64,000 bases of DNA, taken from Verrucomicrobiales bacterium (lineage in GTDB: Bacteria; Verrucomicrobiota; Verrucomicrobiia; Verrucomicrobiales; DEV007). Shown piece after piece: positions 46,841-64,000 of this stretch. Position 1 is the stretch's first letter. The number at the start of each line of letters is the position of its first letter. The DNA lies in NCBI GenBank assembly GCA_002698785.1, contig PAAG01000014.1:62001-126000 (forward strand), in the 5' to 3' direction. The position numbers were made by a program, and so were the translations under genes. The notes under the pieces are model-generated. The model saw only the letters and a program-made list of their open reading frames with translations. It was not told the DNA's origin and searched no databases.

Positions 46841-48049
46841 ATGAGCAGTGAAATACAGAACGTTTCCGCCTCCTGTCTAATTGCCTCTTCCTTTGACGAG
46901 GACCTTCTCTCCGATGCCGCACGTGGATGCCTGGAGCGATTGGGTGAAAATCCAGATCTGGTCATCGCTCTCGTCAGTTCAGACTACCGTCCACATATCG
47001 ATAAGCTTGTCGAGATACTGCAAATTGACGGTCACGCTCGAACAATTGCAGGTGCATCCGCCGGAGGAATTTTCGGAGTTGGAACACAGCAGGAGAATAT
47101 TACAGGTATCTCGCTCCTCTTCCTGAAACTTCCAGGAGTGAAAGTGAAGGTAGACATTCCTGAAGGAAAAAAGATTTCTACCAAGTTCACTCTCAACGAG
47201 GAGCAAATATCCCCGAAGGCCACAATCCTACTCGGAAATCCAGTTTCAACTGACTTGTCCGAGATCCTTGAGAAGTTCAATACCAAACTACCGAAGACCC
47301 CTGTCGTAGGTGGTCTCATCACCGGAGGCCCGGAAGAAGAAGACCTTTTCCTATTCACAGAAAATGGAAAACGGTCAGTCGACACCATGGCGATTCACCT
47401 CTTTGGACGTGTCCATATGGAGACGCTTGTCAGCCAAACCTGCCGTCCTATCGGGGAGCCCTTTGTAATTACCGAAGCCCTCGAAGACGAAGTCATGACA
47501 ATTGGTCGTCGACCGGCCTATGAAGTTCTCAAAGAGGCCTTTGAATCTCTAAAGACTCTCGACCAGGAGCTTGCCGACGGAAACGTTTTTGCCGGCATTG
47601 CTGCTAAAGAGGACGTGGAAGAGTTCAAGACAGGAGACTTTCTCATCCGACGAATCACGAGCACCGATCTAGATCATGGGAGCCTGACACTCGACTCTCC
47701 CGTTCGCTCGGGACAGACCATTCAATTCCAACTACGCGATCCGGAAATGGCTAATCAGAACCTTTCCAAACACTGTGGTGCAATCAAATCAGAACACGGC
47801 GACCCTCTTGCGATATTTGTTGCCAGCGATGTTCAAAGGAGCTTGGCATTCTACGAAGAGACAAACGAAGACGCCACCATTATCCACTCTCACTTCGGTG
47901 AGTCACCAGTCGCTGGCCTGTTCGCCAATCGCGAAATTGCACCCATCGGAGAAGAAAATCGAAGGCTCTCGCTATCGCTTGCCGCAGGGTTTATTTATCT
48001 TGATTCTCCCGAAGCGCTGCCAGAGCCGTCTTCAACTGAAACGGAGTGA
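46841..48049 (+). CDS. FIST domain sensory protein
   Basis: 402 residues containing an N-terminal FIST domain (about 10-215; GASAGGIFGVGTQQENITGISLLFLKL, PVVGGLITGGPEEEDLFLF) and a C-terminal FIST_C domain (EVLKEAFESLKTL, FLIRRITSTDLDHGSL, FVASDVQRSLAFYEET). FIST is a ligand-sensing domain that may bind small molecules such as amino acids. No kinase or cyclase is adjacent, so it probably acts through a distant partner. The last 59 bases overlap the convergent subtilase gene. Confidence 0.88.
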   Translation: MSSEIQNVSASCLIASSFDEDLLSDAARGCLERLGENPDLVIALVSSDYRPHIDKLVEILQIDGHARTIAGASAGGIFGVGTQQENITGISLLFLKLPGVKVKVDIPEGKKISTKFTLNEEQISPKATILLGNPVSTDLSEILEKFNTKLPKTPVVGGLITGGPEEEDLFLFTENGKRSVDTMAIHLFGRVHMETLVSQTCRPIGEPFVITEALEDEVMTIGRRPAYEVLKEAFESLKTLDQELADGNVFAGIAAKEDVEEFKTGDFLIRRITSTDLDHGSLTLDSPVRSGQTIQFQLRDPEMANQNLSKHCGAIKSEHGDPLAIFVASDVQRSLAFYEETNEDATIIHSHFGESPVAGLFANREIAPIGEENRRLSLSLAAGFIYLDSPEALPEPSSTETE

Positions 48050-48752
48050 GATCGGGAAAGTGCTCCCGAAGTCGTGCAGCAATACCAGCGACCTGCGGAC
48101 ACGCAAAACTCGTCCCCGTGAATTGCTGCCAACCTCCATCCGGAGTCGGTGCATCCACGTAGACCCCACAGGCTTCGACCTCGGTCACTTTGCCAGGGTA
48201 AAAACGGAATGAGAGCGGGTCCTCAAAATAGTCCATGTCGACGCCGACGACCGATGCCAACCCGGCAGGGTACCCTACTTTGTTCCGCTTGTTATCTTTC
48301 GCGGCCACCCAGATCATTCCCTGGTAGTAGGCCTTGTCCGCCAGGCGAGCGAGATTCTCGTAGTTCGACTCCGTTCCCAGGCTGAGATTGAGGATATCCC
48401 AGCCCTGATCGACCGCGAATTCGAGAGCAGCAAGAAGCCGCTGCGACGTCGAACTGTGCGTCCGCCCGATTACCCTGACACTGTGCAGTTCCGCATCTGG
48501 AGCATGTGTGTGGATTACATAAGCGCAAGCTGTTCCGTGTTCGATCACGTCTTCACCTGCACTTAGGCTGACGACTCGGGGTCTCCCCCGACCGACCTCT
48601 ACCACTTCATGGTTGCTGATTACTTTCCCCCCTAACTCTGGAAGCGAGGACGCCACGCCGGAGTCGAGGATACCTACCTTCACACCCTTTCCGGTGCCGG
48701 TAGCCAGGCATTCGCGAAGACGCCCCTGATCTACCACGTCATCAAAGGTCAT
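47991..48752 (-). CDS. Cytoplasmic subtilisin-like serine peptidase (S8 family)
   Basis: 253 residues from the ATG at 48752; the open frame reaches a TTG at 48803. Catalytic triad: Asp in VGILDSGVASSLPEL, His in VIEHGTACAYVIH and Ser in FTGTSFACPQVAGIAA; the oxyanion Asn may be in AAKDNKRNKVGYPA. There is no signal peptide or propeptide, so it should act inside the cell and be controlled by another partner. Its start overlaps the end of the GAF protein gene by 11 bases, a translationally coupled pair. The 3' end overlaps the convergent FIST gene by 59 bases. Confidence 0.85.
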   Translation of the reverse strand: MTFDDVVDQGRLRECLATGTGKGVKVGILDSGVASSLPELGGKVISNHEVVEVGRGRPRVVSLSAGEDVIEHGTACAYVIHTHAPDAELHSVRVIGRTHSSTSQRLLAALEFAVDQGWDILNLSLGTESNYENLARLADKAYYQGMIWVAAKDNKRNKVGYPAGLASVVGVDMDYFEDPLSFRFYPGKVTEVEACGVYVDAPTPDGGWQQFTGTSFACPQVAGIAARLREHFPDLTPFQLKTALAALRENQDK

Positions 48753-49479
48753 AGCTTTCTTCGTCGGCTTCTTCGATCGCGTATTCGTCGAGGATATCGG
48801 CAAACCTCAGCAGCATTTCCCTCTCCTTCTCCGGCAGGGTCATCGACTTTTCAGCCAGCAGAGCGGGTAGCTTGTACTTTTGTATCCGATTCGTCGTTTC
48901 GCTAATGTCATCGAATCCATCCAGTCCGAATTCACAGGCATGATCGCAGATCTCGAGGTATGCCATTCCTGTACTGAACTCGATTTTGCGATACAACTTC
49001 ATTGCCGTTGCATAAATCTCCCCAAACGCCTGAGCCGTTTTTAAATCCTTCACGGAAAATGGGGTATCCTCATTCTCACCTTTTCGGTTTACGAATGTGG
49101 CGACTCCGTAGACGCGATCGTCGTCGACGATCGGAACAGCAAGAAGATACTTCGTCTCAATATTTGCTGCCTTGTCCACTTTGGACTGGCCGGGACTGTC
49201 CGGGTGAATCTTTGCCATAGCCTGCCTCGAGCTGAAAACGTAGCCACTGACAGAGCCATCCACCGGCACTGTGATATCTGAAGGATCCAGTGCCGGGTTG
49301 ATCGACACAAGGAATCGCAACACGGTCATGTCGTCGGAAGCAACAAGGATAGATCCCTCAGCTGCCGAAATCTCATCACACGTATCCCTCACGAGTTGTC
49401 GTAGCATTTCCGCTGCGTCAGCAAGGATCCCCTCCCCGTGACTGCGGATTCTCCGTAAAGCGGTCGCTAAATCGGACAT
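48742..49479 (-). CDS. GAF domain protein
   Basis: 245 residues from the ATG at 49479 (the frame extends to a GTG at 49515). GAF-like core about 25-180: AAEGSILVASDDMTVLRFLVSIN, then VDGSVSGYVFSSRQAM and YLLAVPIVDDDRVYGVATFVNRKG. This resembles the small-molecule sensory GAF module. A short helical C-terminus (LPALLAEKSMTLPEKEREMLLRFADILDEYAIEE) follows, which may contact a partner. The overlap with the subtilase gene suggests it senses a signal for that protease. No output domain is seen. Confidence 0.83.
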   Translation of the reverse strand: MSDLATALRRIRSHGEGILADAAEMLRQLVRDTCDEISAAEGSILVASDDMTVLRFLVSINPALDPSDITVPVDGSVSGYVFSSRQAMAKIHPDSPGQSKVDKAANIETKYLLAVPIVDDDRVYGVATFVNRKGENEDTPFSVKDLKTAQAFGEIYATAMKLYRKIEFSTGMAYLEICDHACEFGLDGFDDISETTNRIQKYKLPALLAEKSMTLPEKEREMLLRFADILDEYAIEEADEESYDL

Positions 49480-49593
49480 AACGTGAAGTAGAACACAGCC
49501 TGAGAGAAAACGCACCTTCGATTTCGCAAGAAAGCGGAATGAGAAGACAGACGGCCAGCCCTTCTATTCAGGAGAATGCCCAAACGACCCGGA

Positions 49594-51138: not shown

Positions 51139-51484
51139 GTAGTAGCTCCACATCCCCTCCATAGAATTGGAAACTATGGCCAGCGAATTGAAATTCAAGG
51201 TCGAAATTGAATAGCGAATTTATTCGCCTGGAGACAGCAACCGATAGTAGCGACTTACAGGAAACAGGATCTCGCCTGGCACCCCGTTCGTGCTGAGAAA
51301 TCCGATCTCGCTCTGAGCGCATCGCCGTCGCAAAACCAGTTTCCCGACATGGCCGAAACGAAGATCAGAATAGAATCCTGGAGAGCGCACCCCGGATTTC
51401 GTAAGATCCCGTTAAAAAATGCGACTCAGATAGACCAACCCATCCAGCACCCTCGTAAACTATTTCGTTCAACTGAATCCATTC

Positions 51485-52135
51485 ATGAAGATCCAAACCT
51501 ATCCTATTGCCGCAGCCGCAATCGCTGGCCTGTTCATCGTTAGCTGTGCTGAAAACCCAGCAGACAACACCCCCTCTGCAGAAGTAAGCGACCCAACAGA
51601 GGAATCAGCCTCTACCACCGAGCCTGCTCCAGCAGGTGAAACCACTTCTTATGAATTCACGGAAGAATCGACGATTGGATTTGTCGGCTCCAAAGTGACA
51701 GGAAGCCACGAGGGTGGTTTCAAGAAGTTCTCAGGATCTTTTTCCGTTGCTGACGGAAAACCGGGACCCGGTCCTCACAAGATCGAAATTGATATGACAT
51801 CCACATGGTCAGATGCAGAAAAACTGACCGGTCACTTAAAGAGCCCAGACTTCTTCGATGTTGAGAAGTTCCCAACGTCGGCATTCAAAGTAACGAATGT
51901 CGAAGAGGCAGAAGGAGAAAACGCCTACACCCTCAGTGGGGATTTCACTCTCCATGGGGTCACCAAAAAGATTTCCTTCCCGGCTACAGTGAAGAATGCC
52001 GACGGCAAGGTGATGCTCGATGCCGAGTTCGACATCAACCGGAAAGACTTCGGTATCGTGTATCCCGGAAAACCTGACGACCTGATCCGCGACGAGGTCG
52101 TGATCAAACTGGCGATGGTTGCTGAAGCTGAGTAG
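51485..52135 (+). CDS. YceI family lipoprotein
   Basis: 216 residues. The start MKIQTYPIAAAAIAGLFIVSC is a lipoprotein signal with a C at the lipobox, then a Ser/Thr/Glu/Pro linker of about 35 residues. The YceI beta-barrel follows: YEFTEESTIGFVGSKVTGSHEGGFKKFSG (split over two strands), LTGHLKSPDFFDVEKFPTSAFK and LHGVTKKISFPATV. YceI proteins bind long polyprenyl lipids or fatty amides in the periplasm. A strong terminator follows 30 bases after the stop. Confidence 0.9.
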   Translation: MKIQTYPIAAAAIAGLFIVSCAENPADNTPSAEVSDPTEESASTTEPAPAGETTSYEFTEESTIGFVGSKVTGSHEGGFKKFSGSFSVADGKPGPGPHKIEIDMTSTWSDAEKLTGHLKSPDFFDVEKFPTSAFKVTNVEEAEGENAYTLSGDFTLHGVTKKISFPATVKNADGKVMLDAEFDINRKDFGIVYPGKPDDLIRDEVVIKLAMVAEAE

Positions 52136-52166
52136 TTGTCTCCAACAAACCGAATCTACTTTTTAT

Positions 52167-52201
52167 AAGCCTTTCCGGGATGTTACCGGGAAGGCTTTTT
52201 C
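52167..52201 (+). terminator. Intrinsic terminator of the YceI gene
   Basis: AAGCCTTTCCGG pairs with CCGGGAAGGCTT (one G-U), loop of 7, followed by TTTTT. Stem about 12 bp. It sits 30 bases after the stop at 52135. Confidence 0.85.
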
Positions 52202-52290
52202 ATTTGGGTATTGAATGGGGAAAATGATAAGTTTTTGCAAGGCTTCCCAGCGTTTTATCAAATCACCACCATTCCCATAATTATGGAGTA

Positions 52291-52695
52291 TTAGTGCTCC
52301 GGAATTTCGAATTTGCGGGTGTATTTGATCTTGGGAGGTCCGAATTGATTCATAACTTCGAAATAGCCATGAATTTGTTTCGGGGTGATTTCGGGTTCCA
52401 TGCTGATGCGAAACATGGGGTCGTCTTGGGCGATTTTGGTGGCATCGTAGTATCTTACGAGAATCTCTTTGAACTCGTTTTTGTCGACCGACTCTCCGTT
52501 GATACGGACGTCTTTCCGATAGAATGTGACGGCGAGGGTGTCTATGTTACGCTCGGCTTCCTGTATCGATTCGAGATAGACTGCCTGGATTTTCTCATCA
52601 CTGTTTCCCATGCGGATGAAAAATGGGTTTCCCCCATTGAATTGCAGGAATCTTTCACCATCTGTAAGATACCATGAGCGGAGGCGGAGGCCCAT
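52291..52695 (-). CDS. Small protein, possibly the C-terminal part of a frameshifted lipoprotein
   Basis: 134 residues in this frame. Content such as LAVTFYRKDVRINGESVDKNEFKEILVRYYD and the end FGPPKIKYTRKFEIPEH resembles the ExbD-like C-terminal domain or a similar alpha/beta fold, but I cannot name it. The upstream overlapping frame (52542..52844) supplies a lipoprotein signal peptide in the -1/+1 frame, so a one-base shift near 52650-52700 could have split a single gene of about 180 residues. The region has a lower G+C content than neighbouring genes. Located just downstream of the propeller-ATPase gene on the same strand. Confidence 0.5.
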   Translation of the reverse strand: MGLRLRSWYLTDGERFLQFNGGNPFFIRMGNSDEKIQAVYLESIQEAERNIDTLAVTFYRKDVRINGESVDKNEFKEILVRYYDATKIAQDDPMFRISMEPEITPKQIHGYFEVMNQFGPPKIKYTRKFEIPEH

Positions 52696-52844
52696 CGGTT
52701 CTCGGGGAGAACGATTGTGATTCCCTCGTTTTCCCTTTCCTGATTTAAGGGCGGATCACTTCTACATCCATGACAGCCTCCCAGCGCCAGCAGCATTGCA
52801 AAGCGGAGAAGTAATGAGGGCCTTGAGCAATGCGCCATGGTCAC
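52542..52844 (-). CDS. Lipoprotein N-terminus overlapping the downstream frame
   Basis: 100 residues. MTMAHCSRPSLLLRFAMLLALGGC is a lipoprotein signal with lipobox LGGC, followed by a polar stretch (ERENEGITIVLPENRW). After about residue 50 the sequence looks like noise, while the other frame (52291..52695) looks protein-like from there on. Either two overlapping genes or one gene with a frameshift. It starts 52 bases after the stop of the propeller-ATPase gene. Confidence 0.5.
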   Translation of the reverse strand: MTMAHCSRPSLLLRFAMLLALGGCHGCRSDPPLNQERENEGITIVLPENRWASASAHGILQMVKDSCNSMGETHFSSAWETVMRKSRQSISNRYRKPSVT

Positions 52845-52896
52845 TCTATGCTACCTTCCGGATATCTGAGGTCGAGGCTATACTGTCACTGTCGTT

Positions 52897-55800
52897 CTAC
52901 TCTTCGGTCAGGTGACTTTCGCCTTCGGAAATGTCTTTGAGGATTCTTTCGATGACTTTTTGGGGCTCTCTCTCCAGGACAGTTTCCCGGAGCAGCAGGA
53001 CCGACCACTCGAATCGACTGTCGGCACGTCTGATGAAACCGGAAAGAGTCAGTTGAATCGTAATCGAATCAGACATCTGCTGGGTTAGTCTCCGGGGAGA
53101 GATGGCGTCTCCCAAGAGCCGGTCGAGTTCTTCGTTTGTGAAGTTTTCCCTGTCGGCCATCAGGCAGGCAGCTATTCGTGCGAGAGGCGTGGTGTTGTCT
53201 CGAAAGACAGCGTCCAATTCGTCCTTCATTTGCCGAAGCGCTTCTGCAATCGTCGACTTCTGTATCGTTAGAAATTCTGAGGGATCGGAATTGGCAGGTG
53301 CCTGGCGAAGGATTTCCAACATCCTGATACAGGCTCCCTGGATAAGGCTGGGATTGTTTCCGAGTGGAGTCGTCAATTCCGGCACCAAGTCGCTGTCGTG
53401 GTATTCAACTCCCAGTCGCTGCATGGGCTCCCGAGCCAGCTCGATGGCTGCGTTCGAGTCCAGGGCACCGAGGACTTCACAATTGGCAAAGTTGAAGAGC
53501 GGAGATTTCTGGTTGAGTGTTTCCCGGTAGAGATTTCGGAAGCCTGCCAGGACAAACGAGCAAACGCGATCCTGTTGCAACGAGCGCAAGGCCGTCAGGA
53601 TTCGATACTCGTTGCCGCGGTCGGCGGACACCAATCCGTCTGCCTCGTCGATCAATACGAGGCCGTGTTTTCCAGATGGAAGAGACCTGGCCCATTTCTC
53701 GACGGCTTCCCCCAGGGTTACGCCACTGTCTCCGGTCCAATTCACGGCCTTCTGAAAGGAGCGGATGGCGCGCCGTTCGTTACTGATACCCATCATGTCG
53801 ACAAACACAGGAATAACGTTCTTTCGTTCCTCTTTTGTCCTTTCTTCCAATCGTCGGAGGAGCGAAGTTTTTCCCATACGTCGGGGGCCGACGACGATAC
53901 GACCGAGGCGCTCCGCGTGAAGCAGGGTGCGGAGCAACTCCTTACGACCGTAGAACATTTCGGAATCGGCCACTTCGCCGGACACGGAGTAGGGTGACCA
54001 TTGCAGCAAACCCTGTCCGTGAAGTAGACCGAGTAGTGTATTCTGTGGGAGTGGGGCCAGCAGGAGGGTAGACACCTCGCTGCGACGAAGCTCCAGGAAA
54101 TCCGGTGCGAGCCAGCGCTTTGCGGAATCTCCCTCGCCGGAATCCAAATAGAGATATGGCGTTGTGGGGTCCCTCCCCAGTTCAGTAAGAATGGCCCTGA
54201 CTTTTCGCTTTCTCTCCTCTGGCTCGATTCCTTCGATCGGGTTTGACGCAATGAGGACAAGTGAACCGCGTTGCAAGGGAGTAGGCAGCCCTTTTCGACA
54301 GGCAACTCCTGACAACCCCATCTCGCGGTCTTCGACTGCGTGCTCGATCTCGGTGGAAAGGAGAGAGGCGAGCGCCGCCAGTCTCGCTTCCATCTCCACG
54401 TCCCTGAGCAAGATCTGGCCGACCTCTCCCTCCTTCACCTTGCTTAGCCTACCGAGTGTCCGGAATGCCAGTCCCGCGAGCCTGGGAAGGACGGAGTTAC
54501 CGACCAAGGGGCGAAGCCAGTCGTTGCGATTTTCAGACAGCCCGTTCCGAACCCAGACCGATTTCGCAGTCCGCTCCCGCATCATGGCGATCACAAAAAC
54601 CGACTGAACCGGTTTCCATTGATAGGCAAGTGACGGATCTCGATTGAGTTTCTGCGTCTCCAAGTTCCACCAGAAGACAAAGGTCGCGACGAACGCTACC
54701 AACAGCACAGCGAGATAAAAAAACAGGCTATGCGGGGATTGTCCGCCGAAAACGGGAGCTGCCGCCGTGGCGTAGAGATAACGCCCACGATTCAGAAACA
54801 GTCGGCCATCCGGATGTATCGAAAGATCGTGAACCACCTCGGGCAGGTTTTTGGTTCGATCCCAAATGAAGGATTCCCCGGAGGAGGGATCCCAGCCAAT
54901 CACAGTTGGGTCGGGGCTTTCCTTCGTACCGGCGGTGAGGAGATACAATCGACCTTCCCCATCCGCCTCCACCTTCTCGATCGAACGCCCCGCGAGAAGT
55001 CCTTCTGCGGTTTCCAAACGGACTGTCTCCTGCCCGTCCTCGACTACGAACAGGCCTCGGGGTGTCGCCACCCACAGTCTGCCTGATGTCCAGACAATGT
55101 TGTTGATTTTTGTTTCCGCGAAACCGACACCGGCCTCGGTCGAAATTCTTTTGATTCTTCCGTCTCCGGTATATTGCAGGATCTTCGTTTCCGAACGCAG
55201 CTTGGCCTGTTCTTCGCTGTGAAACAGGACCGGTGAGATGGAATTGTATCCCAGAAAAGCTCCTCCATCGGGCGTTGCGGCAATCGCGTCGACGGGTCCG
55301 CTGGGGATGTTGTCAGGATTTTCTTTCGACCATTGAATGAGTTTCGAGACGGAGAGGTTCTCCTGGCTGACGAGTGCCGCTCCGGCTCCGGTTCCCACCC
55401 AGGCATCCCCACCACGACCGACCGAGAGGGATACAACGTGGTTTGAGGGTATTGAATCGACTTTCGTTATTTTATAGTCGGAAACGAATGAAAGCCCTTT
55501 TTGTTCCGAACCAACCCAGAGTTTCGGTTCTTTCGGCCAGCCAGCCCACGCCGCTACTGCAGATCCACCCGTTGGAACCAGTGTCTTCTCCATGACCTTG
55601 TCGCTCCACCCCTGAATGTGAATGCCATTGGGCCGATGGAGCGCCATCCTCGACTCGTTTAGTGCTATTGAATAAGAATTCTCTGAGGAGAAAGGGAAGT
55701 GCTGAGAGTCCCCACCTGAGGCTTTCTCCTTCGGTTGTATTTTAGAAACTCCTCCTGCCGTTCCAAACCACAAATTCCCCTCTCCACCTTCTACTACACA

Positions 55801-57660
55801 GCTAACATGATTATTTGCGAGACCTTCCGCTACTGTAAATACAGACCATTCGCCAAGTTTCGGTGAGTAGCGACTTACCCCCTTTGATGTTCCAAACCAA
55901 AGATTTCCCTCACTGTCTTTTAGCGCGGTCTGTATGGCATTATCCAGAAGACCGTCCGACTCGGTGAAAACTTTCCACATCCCACTTCCCGGAGAAAAAC
56001 GACTCAATCCTCCCCCTACGGTTCCAAACCACAAATTACCTTCATTATCTTCCAACGCACTCTGCACACCGTAATCTCCCAGATTGCCCGTCACGATATA
56101 CGTTTTCCACTCACCACTCCCCGGACTAAAGCGTCCGACTCCTCCAGCGTAAGATCCAAACCACAAGTCACCCTTCCTATCTTCCAACACACATTGTATA
56201 CCATTATCCGGAAGACCGTCCGATACCATCAGAGTATCCCATTCATTACTTCCCTGAGTATACTTACTCACACCTCCCCTCCATAAACCAAACCACAAGT
56301 TTCCCTTTCTGTCTTCCAACGCACATTGCACGTATTTATCTCCCAGCTTGTTAAATGATAAAAACTTTTTCCACTCGCCGGTCCGTGGATCATAACGACT
56401 AACTCCCCCTCCCAACGTACCAAACCATAGATTCCCGTCACTGGTTTCCAACGAGCACTGCACGTCATTATCCCCGAGACCGTCCAATTCCGAATAGGTT
56501 TTCCACTCACCAATTCGTGGCTGATATCGGCTCAGCCCTCCACCCATTGTCCCGAACCATAGATTTCCTTCTCGATCGTTCACCCCACATAGAACCAAGC
56601 TCCCCTTCAAACGGCTCGATACCAAATATTTATGCCACTCTCCATTTCGCGGCTGATACTTGCTCACTCCTCCACCAAACGTCCCAAACCAAAGATCTCC
56701 ATCTCCGTCTACCACCCCGCATAGAACGCTGTTCGACGCGAGACAGTCCAATCCCTTGAACGTCTGCCACTCACCACTTGCAGGAATAAAGCGACTCACT
56801 CCTTCTGCATTTGTTCCAAACCACAAATTCCCATCTTCGTCTTCTAGTATACATCGAACATCATTATTCGCGATACCGTCTGAATCTTTATAAGTTTTCC
56901 ACTCATCTCTTTCGGGATTGTAGCAACTAACTCCCCCTCGAAATGTACCGAACCACAGATTACCTTCACTATCTTTCAGAGTGCATTGCACATCATTATC
57001 CTCAAGACCGTTCAGCTTCGAATAGTTTTTCCACCCGCCGTCTTCTTTATCATACCGACTTATTCCTCTTCCATTCGTTCCAAACCAAAGATTTCCTTCG
57101 TCGTCGTCCTCTACGCATTGAACTATATTCGAAGCGAGACCGTCAGATTCCGTAAACGTCTTCCATTTGCCTTTTTCCGGCACATACTGGCTCACTCCCT
57201 GACCATTTGTACCAAACCATAAAACCCCCTCTCTATCTTCCAACGCGCAGAGTACGATATTTGAAGCAAGACCGTCAGATTCCGTGAACGTCTTCCATCT
57301 GCCGCTCTCCGGTTCATAGCAACTAATTCCTTTCCCATGCGTTCCGAACCATAAATTCCCCTTCCTATCCTCTACAGCGCATCGGATATCGTTGTGAGAA
57401 AGCCCATCCGATTCCGTAAACGTCTCCCATTCGCCGCTTTCTGGATCATAGCGGCACAATCCCGCCTTGTAGGCCCCAAACCACAGGTTTCCTGAGCTAT
57501 CCAGCAATGTGCATTGCAAATCACTTGCACTAATCGAGCGCGAAGATAATGACAATTCGGGTATCCTCTTTAACTGATTCGCCCCTCCAGAATGCTGTTC
57601 GCAACTCCCAAGGGTTGCGAACAGCACACACAGAAACGCAATCTGAATCGACGCTTTCAC
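52897..57660 (-). CDS. Transmembrane reg_prop beta-propeller sensor with cytoplasmic P-loop ATPase
   Basis: 1587 residues. N-terminal export signal with a lipobox-like TLGSC near residue 20. Residues about 46-645 are 14 copies of a 44-residue two-component regulator propeller repeat (motif NLWFGT-x-GGG-[VL]-S-[RK]-[YF]). A second, more divergent propeller-like region (about 650-960) follows. One membrane span lies near residues 975-997 (LFFYLAVLLVAFVATFVFWW). Beyond it is a cytoplasmic ATPase of the AAA/STAND type: Walker A VVGPRRMGKTSLLRRLEE near 1257, Walker B LVLIDEADGL near 1333 and a C-terminal winged-helix-like region. There is no histidine kinase or HTH domain, as would be usual behind reg_prop repeats. 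The GTG start overlaps the stop of the TIR gene by four bases. A signal-sensing NTPase is the best reading. Confidence 0.85.
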   Translation of the reverse strand: MKASIQIAFLCVLFATLGSCEQHSGGANQLKRIPELSLSSRSISASDLQCTLLDSSGNLWFGAYKAGLCRYDPESGEWETFTESDGLSHNDIRCAVEDRKGNLWFGTHGKGISCYEPESGRWKTFTESDGLASNIVLCALEDREGVLWFGTNGQGVSQYVPEKGKWKTFTESDGLASNIVQCVEDDDEGNLWFGTNGRGISRYDKEDGGWKNYSKLNGLEDNDVQCTLKDSEGNLWFGTFRGGVSCYNPERDEWKTYKDSDGIANNDVRCILEDEDGNLWFGTNAEGVSRFIPASGEWQTFKGLDCLASNSVLCGVVDGDGDLWFGTFGGGVSKYQPRNGEWHKYLVSSRLKGSLVLCGVNDREGNLWFGTMGGGLSRYQPRIGEWKTYSELDGLGDNDVQCSLETSDGNLWFGTLGGGVSRYDPRTGEWKKFLSFNKLGDKYVQCALEDRKGNLWFGLWRGGVSKYTQGSNEWDTLMVSDGLPDNGIQCVLEDRKGDLWFGSYAGGVGRFSPGSGEWKTYIVTGNLGDYGVQSALEDNEGNLWFGTVGGGLSRFSPGSGMWKVFTESDGLLDNAIQTALKDSEGNLWFGTSKGVSRYSPKLGEWSVFTVAEGLANNHVSCVVEGGEGNLWFGTAGGVSKIQPKEKASGGDSQHFPFSSENSYSIALNESRMALHRPNGIHIQGWSDKVMEKTLVPTGGSAVAAWAGWPKEPKLWVGSEQKGLSFVSDYKITKVDSIPSNHVVSLSVGRGGDAWVGTGAGAALVSQENLSVSKLIQWSKENPDNIPSGPVDAIAATPDGGAFLGYNSISPVLFHSEEQAKLRSETKILQYTGDGRIKRISTEAGVGFAETKINNIVWTSGRLWVATPRGLFVVEDGQETVRLETAEGLLAGRSIEKVEADGEGRLYLLTAGTKESPDPTVIGWDPSSGESFIWDRTKNLPEVVHDLSIHPDGRLFLNRGRYLYATAAAPVFGGQSPHSLFFYLAVLLVAFVATFVFWWNLETQKLNRDPSLAYQWKPVQSVFVIAMMRERTAKSVWVRNGLSENRNDWLRPLVGNSVLPRLAGLAFRTLGRLSKVKEGEVGQILLRDVEMEARLAALASLLSTEIEHAVEDREMGLSGVACRKGLPTPLQRGSLVLIASNPIEGIEPEERKRKVRAILTELGRDPTTPYLYLDSGEGDSAKRWLAPDFLELRRSEVSTLLLAPLPQNTLLGLLHGQGLLQWSPYSVSGEVADSEMFYGRKELLRTLLHAERLGRIVVGPRRMGKTSLLRRLEERTKEERKNVIPVFVDMMGISNERRAIRSFQKAVNWTGDSGVTLGEAVEKWARSLPSGKHGLVLIDEADGLVSADRGNEYRILTALRSLQQDRVCSFVLAGFRNLYRETLNQKSPLFNFANCEVLGALDSNAAIELAREPMQRLGVEYHDSDLVPELTTPLGNNPSLIQGACIRMLEILRQAPANSDPSEFLTIQKSTIAEALRQMKDELDAVFRDNTTPLARIAACLMADRENFTNEELDRLLGDAISPRRLTQQMSDSITIQLTLSGFIRRADSRFEWSVLLLRETVLEREPQKVIERILKDISEGESHLTEE
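55725..57528 (-). repeat. Fourteen 132-bp reg_prop repeats
   Basis: Tandem coding repeats of 44 codons. Each has the core D-x-x-G-N-L-W-F-G, then G-x-S-x-Y, G-E-W-K-T-F and S-D-G-L. Repeats 2-12 are nearly regular; the thirteenth unit lost one codon. DNA identity between units is enough for unequal crossing-over, so repeat number may vary between strains. Confidence 0.85.
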
Positions 57661-59066
57661 TTGCCAAGTTCTTTCATTACGGGTGCAGTCCAGGACCAGT
57701 TCCGGGATTCTCGCTGCATGATGCCCAGCCAGACAAGGGCGCGATCTTCGGGGGTCTCTTCAATGCCTTGGGGGATTTCGGGCAAGGAACTGAACAAGTG
57801 CAGTCGCTGTTTCACTTTTTCGTCCATGCCTCCCAAGTGATCCCTCAAGCGTTCCATTTGGGGAGAACGAAGGAGATGGGCTCTAATAGAATCCTCGTCA
57901 TCCAGCGGGGTGCCGGCCTCTAACACACTCTCCACCAAGGCGGGATGTCCTCCGGTTTCGCTCATGATATGACCTGCCTTTGCCCGGGTGCCTATTTGTG
58001 CCGCCAGTTCTCGGACTTCTTCGTCGGTGAACGGCTCCATCTGGACGGGTTCGAGCCGATGGAAGACGGAAAAGTCGGCGTCGCCGGTGCGCTGGCGCAA
58101 CGCATCCAGTTCCTCCCGCCCCCACACGAGCAACTTGAGGCCGTGATTGCAGACGCGGTGCAGGAAGAACCCGAAGTCCCGAAGTCGTGCGGGCGACACT
58201 CTGCCTAATCCGCCAATTACCAAGAGTAGTCTCTTGTTCTGCCTCGAGGCGACCCGCTGCAGCAGGTCGACCAGTTCTTCGAACCGATAGGCATGGTCTT
58301 CTTCGTCTGCCACTTCGTCGAAGGGTGCCTGCCATTCCGACGGGAGCGGGTAACCAAATAGCTGCTCGATCCCCATTTGAACATCCCGTTCACAGGCTCG
58401 GTAGAGACGTTTGTCGTTGTCGGTCCTCGTATCGGGAACGATTTGTATCGGGAGGAGTGTATTCTTTTTTACGCGCAGGTGGTCCACGACTTTTTTAATC
58501 GAGTCGCTGGCCTTGAACCCGAATGGTTCCAGGATGGCTACGCCGGGCCTGGCTGAGTCGTGCAGAAAGTCGAGGATCTGGCGAACGACTTTCGGACGGA
58601 CCATGTGCAATTTGCCGTCGGGCCCGAGAGCGGGCGGTTCGAGGGTGTCCTGTCCGTCCCGTGAGTCCGCTGGAAGGCATCGATCGGCGAGTTGGTTGAG
58701 GATGGCCTCGTCGGGCTCTCGAAAATCGGCATACTTCAATGGCGCGAGGAGCGGTGGAATCTCGCAGTCTTCCAGCAGGAGCGGGATCAGTCGTCCTCTC
58801 TTGTTGGCAGGATCTTCGAATACGGTTCCCGACCTCTCTGCCTCGCTCCAGTCGGAAGCAAAGAACCGGAGGGACATGCAGAGGATGACGTGGCGCGAGT
58901 GGGTCAATCCTTTCTCGATTTCCGACGGAATGTTTCCGCCGATTTCGATCTCGGTTTCGTCGAACCAAACCCTGACTCCGCGACTGGCCAAGCCCTGTGC
59001 AATTTTTCGCACTATCTCTTTGTCGGATGAGGAATGACTCAAGAAGACATCGTATTCAAATTCCAT
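57657..59066 (-). CDS. TIR domain protein with degenerate STAND-like ATPase region
   Basis: 469 residues. Residues 1-130 are a TIR domain: YDVFLSHSSSDKEIVRKIAQGLASRGVRVWFDETEI, GLTHSRHVILCMS and RGRLIPLLLED. In SDWSEAER the Trp73-x3-Glu77 pattern matches the catalytic Glu of NAD+-cleaving TIRs. The rest resembles an ATPase with a degraded P-loop (AILEPFGFKASDSIKKVV, near 165-185) and a degraded Walker B (LLLVIGGLGRVS), so probably no longer an active NTPase. GTG/TGA overlap (4 bases) with the propeller-ATPase gene shows translational coupling. A TIR effector controlled by the membrane sensor is inferred; signalling scaffold is an alternative. Confidence 0.85.
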   Translation of the reverse strand: MEFEYDVFLSHSSSDKEIVRKIAQGLASRGVRVWFDETEIEIGGNIPSEIEKGLTHSRHVILCMSLRFFASDWSEAERSGTVFEDPANKRGRLIPLLLEDCEIPPLLAPLKYADFREPDEAILNQLADRCLPADSRDGQDTLEPPALGPDGKLHMVRPKVVRQILDFLHDSARPGVAILEPFGFKASDSIKKVVDHLRVKKNTLLPIQIVPDTRTDNDKRLYRACERDVQMGIEQLFGYPLPSEWQAPFDEVADEEDHAYRFEELVDLLQRVASRQNKRLLLVIGGLGRVSPARLRDFGFFLHRVCNHGLKLLVWGREELDALRQRTGDADFSVFHRLEPVQMEPFTDEEVRELAAQIGTRAKAGHIMSETGGHPALVESVLEAGTPLDDEDSIRAHLLRSPQMERLRDHLGGMDEKVKQRLHLFSSLPEIPQGIEETPEDRALVWLGIMQRESRNWSWTAPVMKELGK

Positions 59067-59275
59067 CGGTTGCAGCGGCCTCCCTCACAAGATCAAATGA
59101 GTGTAGGGAGCGCAACCGAAAACAGGTGGAACAGGTAGTGAAATGTCGAGGTGAGGGATGTAGGTAGTTGGTTGTTCGACCAGCAAAACCGGTAACTGGC
59201 GAAACTGTAGCCAGTTCCGCTCCACCTAGCTAACTGGTTTTCTCCACCTCGACTCGGGTTTTCAAATATGACGAT

Positions 59276-60478
59276 TCACCACTGGCCTTTCAATTGTTCG
59301 GCCCAGGCAGCCCATTCGCGCTTTTCGTATTCCTTAGCCACTTCCTCGTCTTCTTTCTGGAAGTAGTCCCAGGCGTCTTCGAAGTGGTGAACGAGCTGGC
59401 CGTCACAGTCGATCAGCTTTTGAAACCAATCGGGATCGGTAACGTCGTATTTCTTTACGGCTTCCGGGGCGTTCGCAAGGAATTCCTCGCGAAACTGCGG
59501 GCTCGTGATGCGTCCCATAAGGGCACGCTGGTAGCTGCGCATTCCTGCAAATTCGGGAGCGAGAGGATCGGGTAGCTCACCCAGCCCATCGTTCACGTCG
59601 ACATCTTCGACAGGAGGTGCTTCCGTCGGACGATGGCTGTAGAAAATCTCGCGAGCCTTGCGGATGTCATGCATCACGGAACTGAAAGGCTTGAGTTTGC
59701 TGTCTCGCTCAAGAATCACGTTCCTGACATTCACGGAACGCTTTACCGCTTCATCGAAGAGTGGCCAGACTTGCTCCATCACAGGGGCGGAGTGACTGTC
59801 TTCCCAGCGTCCATCGGGAAGCTGATGCCCGCCGGCGAGGTGCATTTGTGAGACGCGCTCCATGGGCAACTTGTCGAAGAACTCGATGGGGTCGTATCCG
59901 TGGTTGTGTGCGTTGTTGAAAACGTTTGTCACATCGAGCAACAAGGTGCAGTCGGTTTCCTCACAAATACGCCGAAGGAAATCGGCTTCGCTTAGTGAAC
60001 TATGTGGAGCGGGAAAGGAATACGTCACATTCTCCAACGCGAAAGGGCGCCCCAGGATACGACGAACAGCATAATAATTCTGCTTGATCCATTGAACAGC
60101 AACCTCCTCGAACGGAATAGCGAGAAACATCGTCAGGTCGTTTCCGTCGACGCTATGGAAAGCAAGGTGCTCACTGAAAACATTGAGACCGTTCTCCTCC
60201 ATAAAACGCTTCGTGGAGTTCAGGTAAGTCTGGTTGAGTTCCCCTACTGTTCCGATCGAGAGACTGAGACCATGGGCAACGCACGGAAATTTCTGTAGGG
60301 CATCTTTCAGATATCGCTCTTCCGGGTCGCTGTAGGTCCTGCGCTCGCGGACAATGTAGTCCTCCGTAGAAATTTCGAGAAGGTCGATCTCTGAACGATT
60401 CGCGACAGCTTCGTTGTGAACGTTAAAACGGTAAGCGAGTCCGACGCCGTAGGGATGCTGATGATGCTCTGGGTGCAT
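59276..60478 (-). CDS. MNIO (DUF692) family multinuclear iron oxidase with C-terminal extension
   Basis: 400 residues. The DUF692 TIM barrel occupies about 10-290. Putative iron ligands and conserved residues are His69 (VAHGLSLSIG), Glu103/His104 (FSEHLAFHS), Glu149 (ALENVTYSFP), Asp182 (LLLDVTNVFNNAHNHGYDP), His213/His217 (MHLAGGHQL), Asp227/His229 (DSH) and Glu257 (ILERD). MNIOs such as MbnB modify Cys, Asp or Asn in peptide precursors using iron and O2. A roughly 95-residue tail (305-400; SYQRALMGRITSPQFREEFLANAPE) is not part of the canonical domain. It could be a leader-binding or partner module. Downstream of the precursor gene on the same strand. Confidence 0.9.
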   Translation of the reverse strand: MHPEHHQHPYGVGLAYRFNVHNEAVANRSEIDLLEISTEDYIVRERRTYSDPEERYLKDALQKFPCVAHGLSLSIGTVGELNQTYLNSTKRFMEENGLNVFSEHLAFHSVDGNDLTMFLAIPFEEVAVQWIKQNYYAVRRILGRPFALENVTYSFPAPHSSLSEADFLRRICEETDCTLLLDVTNVFNNAHNHGYDPIEFFDKLPMERVSQMHLAGGHQLPDGRWEDSHSAPVMEQVWPLFDEAVKRSVNVRNVILERDSKLKPFSSVMHDIRKAREIFYSHRPTEAPPVEDVDVNDGLGELPDPLAPEFAGMRSYQRALMGRITSPQFREEFLANAPEAVKKYDVTDPDWFQKLIDCDGQLVHHFEDAWDYFQKEDEEVAKEYEKREWAAWAEQLKGQW

Positions 60479-60521
60479 AGGAAAAAGAATGTTTGGGAGT
60501 GTCCGAATTTTCAGGATTCTC

Positions 60522-60567
60522 CCCTCACGGCTTCTGCTTCAGTTTGCAGTAGAAGAAATCGTGAGGG
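60522..60567 (-). promoter_or_regulatory. Intercistronic hairpin between precursor and MNIO genes
   Basis: CCCTCACG (60522-60529) pairs with CGTGAGGG (60560-60567). An inner stem CTTCTGCT with AGTAGAAG (one G-U) extends it after a small bulge. No U-run follows on the minus strand, so it is more likely an RNA-stabilising or processing element that keeps the precursor mRNA more abundant than the downstream enzyme mRNA. Confidence 0.5.
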
Positions 60568-60646
60568 TGTTGACTCCCCGATCGGCCGGGCCACCGCCGA
60601 AGCGAGGCCCGACCATCGGAGATTCATGTCAACGACATGCTACCGA

Positions 60647-60988
60647 TCAATGGTAGCAGTGGTTGCGCCAGCAGTTACGACGCCAGTGGTTGCAGAAGTA
60701 GTTACGACGCCAGCACCATCCGTGTGCTTCTACATCGCCTTCTGCTTCACCTTCAGGTGCAGGTCCATATCCGCCAGCTTCTGCGCCAGAGGTATAGATC
60801 TGGATTACAACCTGACCGCCTGTTCCGGGAACAGTCATTTCAGGTCCAGGTCCGACAGGCCCGGGAGCCGGTCCAACACCTACTTCATCGAGACGTTCTT
60901 TGATTTGCTCAGCTGGGATCATCTTGTCTTCAAGCTGATCGTCTGCAACATCGTAGAACTTTCCGTCACTACTTCTAAGTATAGCCAT
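60647..60988 (-). CDS. Candidate RiPP precursor peptide (113 residues)
   Basis: Layout: residues 1-37 are a structured-looking leader (MAILRSSDGKFYDV, then DDQLEDKMIPAEQIKERLDE). A Gly/Pro spacer (GVGPAPGPVGPGPEMTV) is followed by an acidic Gly-rich stretch. The C-terminal 23 residues (91-113) are rich in Trp, Arg, Asn, His and Cys. They include a nine-residue tandem repeat, W-R-R-N-x3-N-H at 93-101 and 102-110, plus four Cys (92, 99, 106, 111). Between a radical SAM gene upstream and an MNIO gene downstream on the same strand, the role as the shared substrate is very likely. AAGGA is at a good distance from the ATG at 60988. Confidence 0.85.
   Translation of the reverse strand: MAILRSSDGKFYDVADDQLEDKMIPAEQIKERLDEVGVGPAPGPVGPGPEMTVPGTGGQVVIQIYTSGAEAGGYGPAPEGEAEGDVEAHGWCWRRNYFCNHWRRNCWRNHCYH
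60659..60712 (-). repeat. Tandem 27-bp repeat encoding the duplicated core of the precursor
   Basis: Two 27-base units encode W93-H101 and W102-H110. The TGGCGTCGTAAC segment (WRRN) is identical in both. Only the three middle codons differ (Y-F-C in the first, C-W-R in the second). This indicates recent in-frame duplication. Confidence 0.8.
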
Positions 60989-61083
60989 TTTATTTTCCTT
61001 GGTTTGGTTTTGGTTTTAGTTGATGGCGCGCTGAGTGAGTTTTTCAGTCAGCAGCAGCCAACAAAGTTTTTTTGTGTATTGTG

Positions 61084-62358
61084 TTAGTTTTGGGGAGCGG
61101 GCATTTCGATGAGGGGAGCTACCTTGTCGGTAATCCCAAGATCGTTTTCCAGATCCTCCAAAATGATTTCCATGGGCATCTGCACTGTAGATTTGCACTG
61201 GTGCGTCTGCGCCGAGTCGAAAGAGCCATTCTCGTAGTATTTATTCGAGGGTGAGGCACCTCCGCAGTATTGCCAGAACTGACAGGTCTCGGCACACTTC
61301 TTGTTACCGGCCTCAATGTCAGCCAGGACATGTTGGAAAGCTTCATTCACCGTGGCGTCGAATACGGAACCGTTGATTAGGTTTCCAAAGCTGAAGCTTC
61401 CGTATTTTTCTGTCGGCTGCCCCAGGAGCTCCGGAGAGAAGCTGGAGAAGTTGCCGAAGCAGTCCACGTTGATCATCCCGAAAGGATCGGCCTCCATATT
61501 GTAGTAGTCGCCGTCAGGCTTATGAGACCATCCTGGTTCGAGGATGTTGCGCTCGGCGTTCTGAAACTCCCGCACGTTGATCGGGAATCCATCGGCTTTG
61601 TTGCGCAGATAAAATCTTTTCAGGAAAGAGCGAATTCGGTCGAGCCCACCCTCCATCTTGTCGAGTGAGGAGCTTGCGTTCGCGCCCTCTACTTCTTCGA
61701 TGTTGAACCCGAGTCCGGTGATATCGTGTTCCCGGTAGAATTCATACATTTCATCGGGGTGATCGACAGATATGTCAGAGATCACGGAGATCACGCCAAA
61801 GGGCACGTTGTTCTTCCTTAGAGTTTCCATGCCGCGCATGGCTTTCTGGAAAGTGCCTTCCCCTTTTCGGGTCTTGCGATGGTGATCGTGGATGTGCTCT
61901 GGACCATCGATACTGATTCCGACTTCCACCTGGTGCTCGTTCAGGAATGCACACCACTTATCGTTTACGAGCGTGCCATTGGTCTGAACGGAGTGGATCA
62001 CATAATCTTTTGCCTTTGGGAAACGATTGATGATCTCGAACGCCTGCTCATACCACTTAATCGGCACCGCGAGAGGCTCTCCAGCGTGCCAGAGAAGGCT
62101 GAAAGGAGAAATGACCAGTCCGCTATTCCAGATTTTGTCCATGACCTTCTCAAGAACATCGAAGTCCATCCGGCGAGTATCAGTGCGATTCGGCAGGTAG
62201 CAGTAGTCGCAGTTGATGTTGCAGAAAGGGCTCGGCTGGATCACGAGGAGTCCCATTGCAAGCCGATCCGAGTTCATTGGAGTCAGCTTCGGGATCTCGA
62301 GAGCAGCGTTCTGACTGGGAGCGCTCTGGGTTTGGGAAGCGGAAATGGTCGTTGTCAT
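61084..62358 (-). CDS. Radical SAM/SPASM peptide maturase, GrrM/triceptide type
   Basis: 424 residues. After a disordered 30-residue N-terminus the radical SAM cluster motif is Cys46-x3-Cys50-x2-Cys53 (PSPFCNINCDYCYLPNR), with HAGEP (91-95) as the SAM-binding GGEP-like loop. The SPASM region has Cys300, Cys355, Cys359, Cys365 and Cys388 (CAETCQFWQYCGGASPSNKYY...). The sequence around the cluster and the ESGSF/ENGSF-NKYY segment match the GRRM-system maturases as I know them. Those enzymes crosslink aromatic residues to a residue two positions on (three-residue cyclophanes). An anaerobic sulfatase-maturating enzyme is the main alternative, because two sulfatases are present, but the gene context favours a RiPP. 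Confidence 0.87.
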   Translation of the reverse strand: MTTTISASQTQSAPSQNAALEIPKLTPMNSDRLAMGLLVIQPSPFCNINCDYCYLPNRTDTRRMDFDVLEKVMDKIWNSGLVISPFSLLWHAGEPLAVPIKWYEQAFEIINRFPKAKDYVIHSVQTNGTLVNDKWCAFLNEHQVEVGISIDGPEHIHDHHRKTRKGEGTFQKAMRGMETLRKNNVPFGVISVISDISVDHPDEMYEFYREHDITGLGFNIEEVEGANASSSLDKMEGGLDRIRSFLKRFYLRNKADGFPINVREFQNAERNILEPGWSHKPDGDYYNMEADPFGMINVDCFGNFSSFSPELLGQPTEKYGSFSFGNLINGSVFDATVNEAFQHVLADIEAGNKKCAETCQFWQYCGGASPSNKYYENGSFDSAQTHQCKSTVQMPMEIILEDLENDLGITDKVAPLIEMPAPQN

Positions 62359-62430
62359 GATGCAGGTCTGACGATTAGCTATTCTAATTTATGAACACTT
62401 TTTGAATCTTTTTTCCTAATAGAGGGAGAT

Positions 62431-62598
62431 TCACTTACGAAGGTCCACGGTAACCTTTTTACGTGCTGCCTTTTTAGCCTTGGCCTGAAACTCGCGAACT
62501 ACATCGATGCGGTGTTGCAAAGGCAGTGTTGCTCTCACACCCTGCCGAACGGCACGGATGCGGTCAAAAAGGGACCCTGTGTTCATGTTGCTATTCAT
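62431..62598 (-). CDS. 55-residue basic peptide upstream of the maturase
   Basis: MNSNMNTGSLFDRIRAVRQGV is followed by an amphipathic helix and the highly basic tail AKAKKAARKKVTVDLRK. The ATG at 62598 is preferred over a TTG at 62625. No family recognised. Possible roles are a second substrate or leader-like peptide, a small regulator binding the adjacent inverted repeat, or a partner of the maturase. It sits 72 bases upstream of the radical SAM gene on the same strand. Confidence 0.6.
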   Translation of the reverse strand: MNSNMNTGSLFDRIRAVRQGVRATLPLQHRIDVVREFQAKAKKAARKKVTVDLRK

Positions 62599-62669
62599 AT
62601 TGAAGATTTCTTTTCGTTGAGGCAAGAAAACGGTAGAGAAAAACTCGGCACTCAGTTCGCCTTGCCTTT

Positions 62670-62685
62670 AGCGCAATTTTGCGCT
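62670..62685. promoter_or_regulatory. Inverted repeat in the divergent promoter region
   Basis: AGCGCAA, TT, TTGCGCT: perfect 7-bp arms with a two-base spacer. It lies midway between the divergent basic-peptide gene (start 62598) and the ABC exporter gene (start 62758), where a shared operator would be expected. Confidence 0.4.
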
Positions 62686-62757
62686 CGGTTAGTAGAGAGA
62701 CGACTGCGAGCGGGATTTCATGCGAATCGGTTTCGAGTTTTCCGCGTCGAACTGAAG

Positions 62758-64000
62758 ATGGACCCGAATTCACAGACGCCACCACAGGATGAAGCATCAG
62801 CCATGCCGGGTGGACCTCCCCCTGACGGCATGGAGATGGGCCCGCCACCAGAAGGTGGCGGAGAAATGGGGCCTCCGCCTTCAGATATGGATCCACGCGA
62901 GATGAGGCACTTCTGCTTCAAGATGATTCGCGAAATCACCGGACGTCTCGGTTGGAAGTACAAGCTCTGGATTCCCGGCGCGGTCCTTCTCTCTTCTGTG
63001 TATCTGCTCCCGCCCCGGTTCTTTCAATATTTTACGGAAGGTCTCGATCGACTTTCGGAAACGACTGCACTCGATTTCATCAAGATGCTGGCGATCTTCG
63101 GTATTGGCATCGCGATTTGTCAGTGGATTGCCTTGATCTTTGAAAGCATCATCGGCCAGTGGTTGCGGCTTCGTGTTAGTATCGAATTGCGACAGGACGC
63201 GGTCCAAAGCCTGAATCGCACAAGAATTGACGCTCTGGACTCGGCAAAACGTGGCGACTGGATGACTCGAATGACGGGCGATTTGTTCAACGCGGAGGAA
63301 TTCATGACGACTTCCCTCCCCGATCAGATCACGAACCTGACAATGCTGGTGGGATCAGCAGCTCTATTTTTCTGGTATAGCGGCCCGATCGCTTTTATCC
63401 CGATCCTGGGGGCATTGCTTCTCGCTTGGGTAAACATCATTGTTCAGAAGAAAATGGGCCCGAAACTCGGCTATGCCCGAATGTTGGAAGGCGGAGTCTT
63501 CCAGACGATGATCGAGACGTTCGAGGGCTTGCGTACGATACGTAGCTACGGTGGAGAGAAATTCACCTTCGGACGCATCTCAGAACAGCTCAAAGATGTC
63601 TACAAGACGGGAATGAGCATCACCAAGTCCATGGCTTGGCTCATGGGAACGAATGAGTTCGTAGGCCAGCTTATCGTAACGGGTATTCTCACCCTGGTTG
63701 CTTTTCAGGTTCGCGGAAAAGAACTCACCGCCGCGGATGCGCTAATCTACCCCTTCTACATCAATATGTTCCTGGGGGCGGCAAAAACACTCGTTGGTTC
63801 CGCTTACGATTGGAACCGTTTCTTCTTTGAAGGGGGGCGCCTTGCTTCCCTACTCTACGACAAGGACAAACAGGAATCGGATCACGAAGAGATTTTCGGA
63901 GATTTCAAAAATGAGATCAAAGAGGTGGACTCCTTTCATGTGAAGGATGCCATCATTGCCTATGGAGACAATCCTCCAGTCATTCAGAACCAGGACCTGC
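62758..64000 (+). CDS. ABC exporter permease-ATPase, 5' part (truncated by window end)
   Basis: The frame is open to the end of the window, with 414 residues visible. The first 45 residues are rich in Pro, Gly, Met and Glu (PGGPPPDGMEM, GPPPEGGGEMGPPPSDM), not resembling a C39 peptidase domain. Then come six hydrophobic spans of an ABC type I exporter transmembrane domain (GAVLLSSVYLLP, FGIGIAICQWIALIF, with coupling helix and EGLRTIRSYGGEKF). The start of the nucleotide-binding domain (AIIAYGDNPPVIQNQDL) is at the end. Walker A is not reached. It probably exports the mature peptide; the divergent location next to the cluster supports this. Confidence 0.83.
   Translation, partial: MDPNSQTPPQDEASAMPGGPPPDGMEMGPPPEGGGEMGPPPSDMDPREMRHFCFKMIREITGRLGWKYKLWIPGAVLLSSVYLLPPRFFQYFTEGLDRLSETTALDFIKMLAIFGIGIAICQWIALIFESIIGQWLRLRVSIELRQDAVQSLNRTRIDALDSAKRGDWMTRMTGDLFNAEEFMTTSLPDQITNLTMLVGSAALFFWYSGPIAFIPILGALLLAWVNIIVQKKMGPKLGYARMLEGGVFQTMIETFEGLRTIRSYGGEKFTFGRISEQLKDVYKTGMSITKSMAWLMGTNEFVGQLIVTGILTLVAFQVRGKELTAADALIYPFYINMFLGAAKTLVGSAYDWNRFFFEGGRLASLLYDKDKQESDHEEIFGDFKNEIKEVDSFHVKDAIIAYGDNPPVIQNQDL

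Follow-up and report, generated by a model that had tools for sequence, protein, structure and literature searches.

An exact repeat at the end of a short ORF

The stretch of Verrucomicrobiales DNA analysed here, 64,000 nucleotides long and referred to below as the window, contains an ORF of 113 codons (60647..60988, minus strand) whose C-terminal end, AHGWCWRRNYFCNHWRRNCWRNHCYH, raises the question whether a nine-residue sequence found twice in it is a functional element, and what kind of product it would give rise to. A preliminary description of this DNA had reported the pattern W-R-R-N-x3-N-H as present exactly twice, at residues 93-101 and 102-110 (60659-60712). Pattern and coordinates agree exactly with the ORF translation, which reads WRRNYFCNH in unit 1 (60686..60712, minus strand) and WRRNCWRNH in unit 2 (60659..60685, minus strand). 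The core cysteines had been placed, correctly, at 92, 99 and 106, but Cys111 had been left out; from residue 89 onward, the window's sequence holds four Cys and four His. The core, with approximate limits drawn from column counts at residues 90-113 (60650..60721, minus strand), is separated by an acidic, glycine-rich spacer from a conserved region, residues 1-66 (60791..60988, minus strand), which ends with the conserved block QVVIQIYT of alignment A1 and is presumed to act as a leader.

The two units of the window are identical at 6/9 residues and 23/27 bases. A direct-repeat search over positions 46500-64000 (minimum length 25, seed 14) independently recovered a 27-nt pair, 60657-60683 and 60684-60710, 85% identical, as one of two families. 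When the 25-residue core was shuffled 20,000 times, 6/9 identities at period 9 were reached in 0.065% of the shuffles, and the same identity at some period between 5 and 12 in 3.0%. In the window's sequence taken singly, a chance origin of the repeat is improbable, not overwhelmingly so; the occurrence of two units in all 14 homologous precursors compared is stronger evidence than the shuffle statistics.

Conservation of the core

The search of sequenced genomes returned ten loci, all assigned to Verrucomicrobiales, Verrucomicrobiia or Akkermansiaceae. Alignment A1 was built from 14 distinct precursors of 13 genomes, all belonging to one uncultured Verrucomicrobiales genus, that of the window; genes retrieved twice were counted once in the precursor tallies, and the G026 precursor (retrieved as L013, L026 and L040), interrupted by a run of N, was left out. 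The other 13 precursors are 50-88% identical to that of the window. Thirteen core positions are invariant in 14/14 sequences: C92, W93, R94, N96, F98 and N100, followed by W102, R104, N105, C106, W107, R108 and N109. Synonymous codon changes occur at eight of them and three more are Trp, while C92 and N109 use a single codon in all 14 precursors. R95 is replaced once by His and R103 once by Gln. The remaining positions vary, with Y9 H2 C2 S1 at 97, S8 C5 N1 at 99, H6 C5 Y3 at 101, H6 S4 G2 K1 C1 at 110 and C11 Y3 at 111; cysteines other than C92 and C106 are thus found at 97, 99, 101, 110 or 111, or are absent. Within single precursors, the two units are identical at six of nine residues in 6/14 sequences and at five of nine in the other eight.

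The conserved unit is W-x-x-N-x-Ω-x-N-x, present twice, Ω being Phe in unit 1 and Trp in unit 2. Along the core, the distances from each aromatic residue to the following Asn are 3, 2, 3 and 2 in all 14 precursors, and an aromatic residue followed, after one or two residues, by Asn, four times per core, is a better description of the modification unit than W-R-R-N alone. The preliminary description had regarded the repeated W-R-R-N as a modification site, which holds in kind, W and N being invariant in 14/14 precursors beside a radical SAM enzyme gene, though not in several details. His had been expected to be conserved along with W and N, and varies at both 101 and 110. The copy number, expected to vary, is exactly two throughout the one genus compared. 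The middle residues do not change freely either, since every unit has an aromatic residue at its sixth position (F98, W107) and every precursor has the stretch C106-W107-R108. Loss of the repeat or of the frame in homologues, named there as grounds for abandoning the idea, was seen in none of the 14 precursors. The seven-residue spacing of cysteines was dropped as a feature, Cys99 being present in just 5/14 sequences and C92 and C106 in all.

One genome carries tandem precursor genes (L034:6001-6348 and L034:6497-6847) of two units each, with cores ending in GYGGYGY or GYGGGYRW and lacking Cys111.

Neither Pfam nor NCBIfam models recognise the precursor, as would be expected were the ORF spurious and its end of low complexity; the NCBIfam result, obtained with three precursors against the precursor models, is a weak test, since the ORFs beside grrM in Nostoc and Phaeobacter also lack meaningful matches. 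In-frame conservation, synonymous changes and the constant place between two RiPP maturase genes already contradict this explanation, which is hardly credible. That the repeat is a functionless remnant of a recent DNA duplication is also very improbable. The 23/27 base identity between the window's units, the highest among the 14 genes, would fit it, as would the third bases at the four shared codons, which agree at 0.75 within genes and at 0.61 between the units of different genes, a hint of conversion or codon bias. Both units are, however, present in all 14 genes, down to 50% precursor identity, with the same differences between units, so that any duplication must predate the genus; moreover, across genes unit 2 matches unit 2 at a mean of 23.7/27 bases and unit 1 matches unit 1 at 21.4, against 20.0 between the units of one gene. 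Recent duplication was rejected as the cause of the repeat, since the likeness of units across genes exceeds that within genes. The repeat is real and constrained, and the C-terminus of the ORF is very probably the core of a precursor peptide.

Two enzyme families beside the precursor

Upstream of the precursor, on the same strand, lies a gene for a GrrM/OscB-family radical SAM/SPASM enzyme of 424 aa (61084..62358, minus strand), which matches TIGR04261, the model for cyclophane-forming maturases of this family, at 436.8 bits, over a cut-off of 310. The CxxxCxxC motif (C46, C50, C53) and the SPASM cysteines C355, C359, C365 and C388 are invariant in a comparison of 14 rows, which takes in the GrrM proteins of Nostoc, Phaeobacter and Streptomyces. 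OscB, listed as IPR026357, joins C7 of Trp to the beta carbon of Asn or Asp at i+2, and C4 of Phe to the beta carbon of Asn at i+2, according to the sections of PMC11002830 that were available. F98-x-N100 and W107-R-N109 obey this Omega-x-N rule in 14/14 precursors. W93-R-R-N96 and W102-R-R-N105 are one residue longer than the i+2 Asn rule; at these W-x-x-N sites, Asn is found at i+3 in 28/28 cases and Arg at i+2 in 27/28, and for this reason the sequence does not choose between the two as link partner of W93 and W102. Two of the four other GrrM loci inspected have comparable arrays, the ORF before grrM ending in WDN, WND and WGN in Nostoc (L074) and in WLN, WSN, WNN, WSN, WHN, FSN and WGN in Phaeobacter (L075); no Omega-x-N array was found in the listed upstream ORFs of the other two, from Streptomyces (L076) and a viral contig (L100). 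The Phaeobacter ORF (L075:5633-5974, on a plasmid) encodes a 114-aa hypothetical protein ending in QWLNSWSNWNNWSNWYKPWHNFSNYSWGNW, where likely cyclophane sites are densely packed.

Downstream of the precursor is a gene for an MNIO (DUF692) enzyme of 400 aa (59276..60478, minus strand), which matches PF05114 at 243.8 bits, over a cut-off of 25. The PDB structures closest to its predicted fold (mean pLDDT 70.2) are TglH (8hci, 8hi7), 3bww and MbnB. H69, E149, D182, N185, H213, D227, H229 and E257, which we take to be candidate iron ligands, are invariant in alignment A2, and the surrounding blocks can be aligned with MNIOs of known structure. The enzyme is a divergent member of its family: the nearest NCBIfam models, HvfB (210 bits, cut-off 360) and BufB (197 bits, cut-off 310), both remain below cut-off, and PF05114 scores are 218-245 bits in the 15 relatives with the cluster, versus 348-374 for the other eight matches among the relatives; in the phylum sample, the others score 329-365 bits, save one of 124.9. 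It also carries a C-terminal extension of about 116 residues (285-400; 59279..59626, minus strand), predicted to be helical. Of four such sequences given to Pfam, two had a LigA match (E 0.014 and 0.17) and no other family came up; NCBIfam gave an NHLP-type match (2.4e-5, 24.3 bits, below the cut-off of 34) in one of three, and a low-confidence model (mean pLDDT 66.5) gave no PDB match below E 3.9. No separate DUF2063 or PME-type MNIO partner was detected by Pfam among the window's neighbours or the ORFs of L031 and L095 that were run, and the extension may stand in for such a protein.

Distribution of the cluster

The gene order radical SAM enzyme, precursor, MNIO is kept in 10/10 loci. Among 56 relatives, 15 match TIGR04261, all within one genus of 33 genomes, and the divergent MNIO was found in the same 15. 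The precursor was detected at E<=1e-30 in 14 of these 15 cluster genomes, all of the window's genus; in the remaining one (G024), both contigs end within the precursor interval. Weak precursor matches in ten further relatives (E 0.0098-0.089) were counted as chance. A survey of 25 of the 33 genomes of the genus took in every one of the 15 cluster genomes, along with 10 of the 18 lacking the cluster (completeness >= 90%; G017 was left out, though it qualified); a subtilisin-like S8 protease was found at E<=1e-40 in 13/15 genomes with the cluster versus 0/10 tested without it. In G009, one of the two cluster genomes without a hit, the MNIO gene is immediately followed by a more distantly related S8 gene. 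The genomes being related members of one genus, these conservation and co-occurrence counts do not represent many independent events.

Over 387 genomes of the phylum, both profile A1 and TIGR04261, the latter at E<=1e-60, detected the window's own genome only, and profile A1 found no precursor in viral contigs. No MNIO was found in six GrrM loci, three from plasmids (a sample of three of six records) and three from viral contigs, L102 being just 24% identical.

Other genes and intergenic sequences

The interval between precursor and MNIO (60479..60646, minus strand) forms strong hairpins at the RNA level, with a folding energy of -72.2 kcal/mol (z -5.16). When the corresponding intervals were folded in ten loci (60 shuffles each), z was below -3 in seven, including L036, where the folded stretch ends at another gene. 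Such hairpins would be the usual device by which more precursor than enzyme is produced. In one genome, an ORF judged by eye to be threonine dehydratase-like lies between precursor and MNIO (L036:3650-5230).

Upstream of the radical SAM gene, a small basic protein is encoded (62431..62625, minus strand), its conserved part probably starting from an inner Met. Relatives were found in 7/10 homologous loci and in L095, these eight loci including the most divergent one, and were not found in L037, L038 and L039; it is a possible accessory factor. The protein has a conserved RIxxVRxGxRxxxPLxxRI-like motif and matches no family. A divergent ABC exporter gene (62512..64000, plus strand; PF00664) runs past the end of the window; in a longer stretch its ORF, counted from the listed GTG, has 704 codons. 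An ABC gene is located upstream in 9/10 loci; in the tenth (L039), the contig starts too near.

About 10 kb from the MNIO gene, the window contains a subtilisin-like S8 protease gene (47991..48803, minus strand), whose product is 81% identical to the L031 protein matching PF00082 and is a candidate leader protease, and next to it a GAF-domain protein gene (48742..49515, minus strand), the product of which is 72% identical to the L031 protein matching PF01590. Downstream of the cluster in homologous loci, the protease was found in 7/9, the GAF protein in 6/9 and a FIST protein in 6/9, L038 being left out of the search as it ends inside the MNIO gene; L034 and L037 have none of the three within their flanks. 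In G001, G032 and G005 the S8 gene is on a different contig from the cluster, and the G005 contig ends inside the gene. Two further S8 genes of the window's genome are just 34% and 31% identical. S8 enzymes are known as leader proteases, examples named in the available portion of PMC10885120 being NisP, PatA and PatG. Together, the GAF, protease and FIST genes (46841-49515 in the window) make up a set seen again close to the cluster at homologous loci, suggesting that sensing is coupled with peptide processing.

Between MNIO and the GAF and S8 genes lie, on the minus strand, genes for a TIR plus AAA-like protein (57657-59066) and for a protein of 1587 residues that combines eleven Reg_prop stretches with an AAA-like ATPase (52897-57660). 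Neither the TIR nor the propeller gene had a match in the ten homologous loci, within flanks of up to 6 kb. The TIR part resembles PADLOC defence TIR proteins, PDC-S66 being the best (85.6 bits).

Proposed maturation and its alternatives

On the whole, the ORF is best read, with a probability of roughly 0.6, as the precursor of a doubly modified, triceptide-like RiPP, in which aromatic residues would be joined to nearby residues and the MNIO would act on Cys92 and Cys106. The sequences, gene order, enzyme families, conservation and co-occurrence were observed directly; from here on we infer the chemical steps, the order of the enzymes, the role of the protease and export. The leader (about residues 1-66) and the acidic, glycine-rich spacer would present the core (about 90-113) to the two enzymes. 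The radical SAM enzyme would act on all four conserved aromatic residues, connecting their rings to beta carbons close by in the chain: F98 to N100 and W107 to N109 would become three-residue cyclophanes according to the published OscB rule, and the partner of W93 and of W102 would be residue i+2, which is Arg save for one His, or else the Asn that never varies at i+3. The MNIO would oxidise C92 and C106, each immediately N-terminal to a conserved Trp and most likely its targets, being the only invariant cysteines. Cleavage by the subtilisin-like protease near the conserved A88-H89 would take off the leader, and the product would leave through the ABC exporter. Against this reading stands the fact that two of the four sites, those with W-R-R-N, have no direct precedent in the sections of PMC11002830 that were available. 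Also counting against it are the GrrM loci L076 and L100, whose listed upstream ORFs have no Omega-x-N array, the precursor's failure to match an NCBIfam precursor model, the lack of a separate DUF2063-type partner among the neighbours run, a core free of EGKCG, an S8 gene some 10 kb off or on a different contig, the six plasmid and viral GrrM loci in which no MNIO was found, and the restriction of all homologues to a single genus.

The MNIO target is the least certain step, since other MNIOs act on other residues, such as Phe. The same precursor and cyclophanes could be combined with oxidation by the MNIO of an aromatic residue (F98 or a Trp, for example) or of Asn, the cysteines forming a disulfide or binding metal. 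PbsC, an MNIO, ortho-hydroxylates Phe, after which a B12 radical SAM enzyme cross-links the products (PMC12257519, in the text accessible), F98 is invariant in 14/14 precursors, and the divergence of the MNIO in its PF05114 scores points the same way. Nevertheless, F98-x-N100 is already a standard cyclophane site, C92 and C106 never change while other cysteines shift or vanish, as expected of enzyme targets, and the nearest, if below cut-off, models are HvfB and BufB, HvfA-type products carrying Cys-derived thiooxazoles (PMC13097082, in the part available); a target other than Cys is therefore considered unlikely. Still less probable is a core that acts mainly as a metal-binding Cys/His peptide, with the repeat as a ligand scaffold rather than a set of modification sites. 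Its four Cys and four His in the window, the presence of H101 and H110 in all five sequences having C99, and the binding of copper by known MNIO products (PMC12452194 and PMC13097082, as far as their available text goes) would suit such a peptide. The Cys and His positions are nonetheless variable, many residues being accepted at 101 and 110 and only two Cys being left in the L034a core, while every invariant residue other than C92 and C106 is a W, R, N or F; in addition, no copper-handling protein was found among the neighbours run through Pfam.

Starting again from the doubly modified, triceptide-like peptide, a tentative extension can be formulated, possible though doubtful, in which the GrrM-type enzyme would alternate four-residue (W-x-x-N) and three-residue (Omega-x-N) rings, and the MNIO, with its fused extra domain, would convert the two Cys preceding Trp, to give an undescribed tetracyclic, Arg-rich peptide. 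Should the alternating spacing be read by a single enzyme, this would make the system a test of how a cyclophane-forming enzyme measures ring size, for which the natural variants WRHN and WQRN and the tandem precursor genes are ready-made substrates; if true, it would further supply small peptides that are rich in Arg and multiply locked.

Comparison with known systems

Among peptide-modifying enzymes, the GrrM/OscB family and the MNIOs are both versatile; their joint action on one precursor is unreported in the literature searched. A full-text search, with supplements and most subscription papers outside its reach, returned no report of a system combining GrrM and MNIO, and no paper joining Verrucomicrob with radical SAM, cyclophane and RiPP. 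In the available portion of the MNIO landscape paper (PMC12452194), the terms Verrucomicrob, GrrM, rSAM and triceptide are absent and radical SAM occurs in the references only; a term search of PMC12636315 gave no hits.

Bufferins and captophorins are 5-thiooxazole copper peptides made by MNIOs, and thiooxazole peptides have an EGKCG motif (PMC13097082, in the part available), which is missing from the precursor described here. HvfB and BufB are the nearest models of the present MNIO, below cut-off; the precursor has no Pfam match, of DUF2282 type or other, and its N-terminus, MAILRSSDGKFY, lacks by inspection a hydrophobic stretch, although a Sec signal peptide is expected of precursors in that group. 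In contrast to those systems, no DUF2063 or DoxX gene was found among the neighbours searched, and a radical SAM partner is present.

The biphenomycin-like pbs cluster also applies an MNIO and a radical SAM enzyme to one precursor; as far as the accessible text of PMC12257519 describes it, its radical SAM enzyme is of the B12 type, in contrast to the SPASM/GrrM type found here, and its arginase, separate partner gene and FRF motif were not seen in the present cluster.

The GrrM/OscB triceptides are similar in that the maturase scores above the TIGR04261 cut-off, that the precursor gene directly adjoins it, and that F98-x-N100 and W107-x-N109 fit the Omega-x-N rule. The present system differs from them by having W-x-x-N at two of its four conserved sites, a core rich in Arg and Cys, an MNIO gene in the cluster, and no match to an NCBIfam precursor model. 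The XncB triceptides are set apart by their enzyme: that of the window belongs to the GrrM/OscB family, and the NCBIfam model XyeB, presumably kin of XncB, scores just 80 bits. XncB links Trp to Arg or Asn at i+2, according to the available text of PMC11002830, and in this provides a precedent for linking W93 and W102 to Arg. The system is thus regarded as a variant of the triceptide kind to which an MNIO has been added, and both the combination of enzymes and the spacing of the sites look new.
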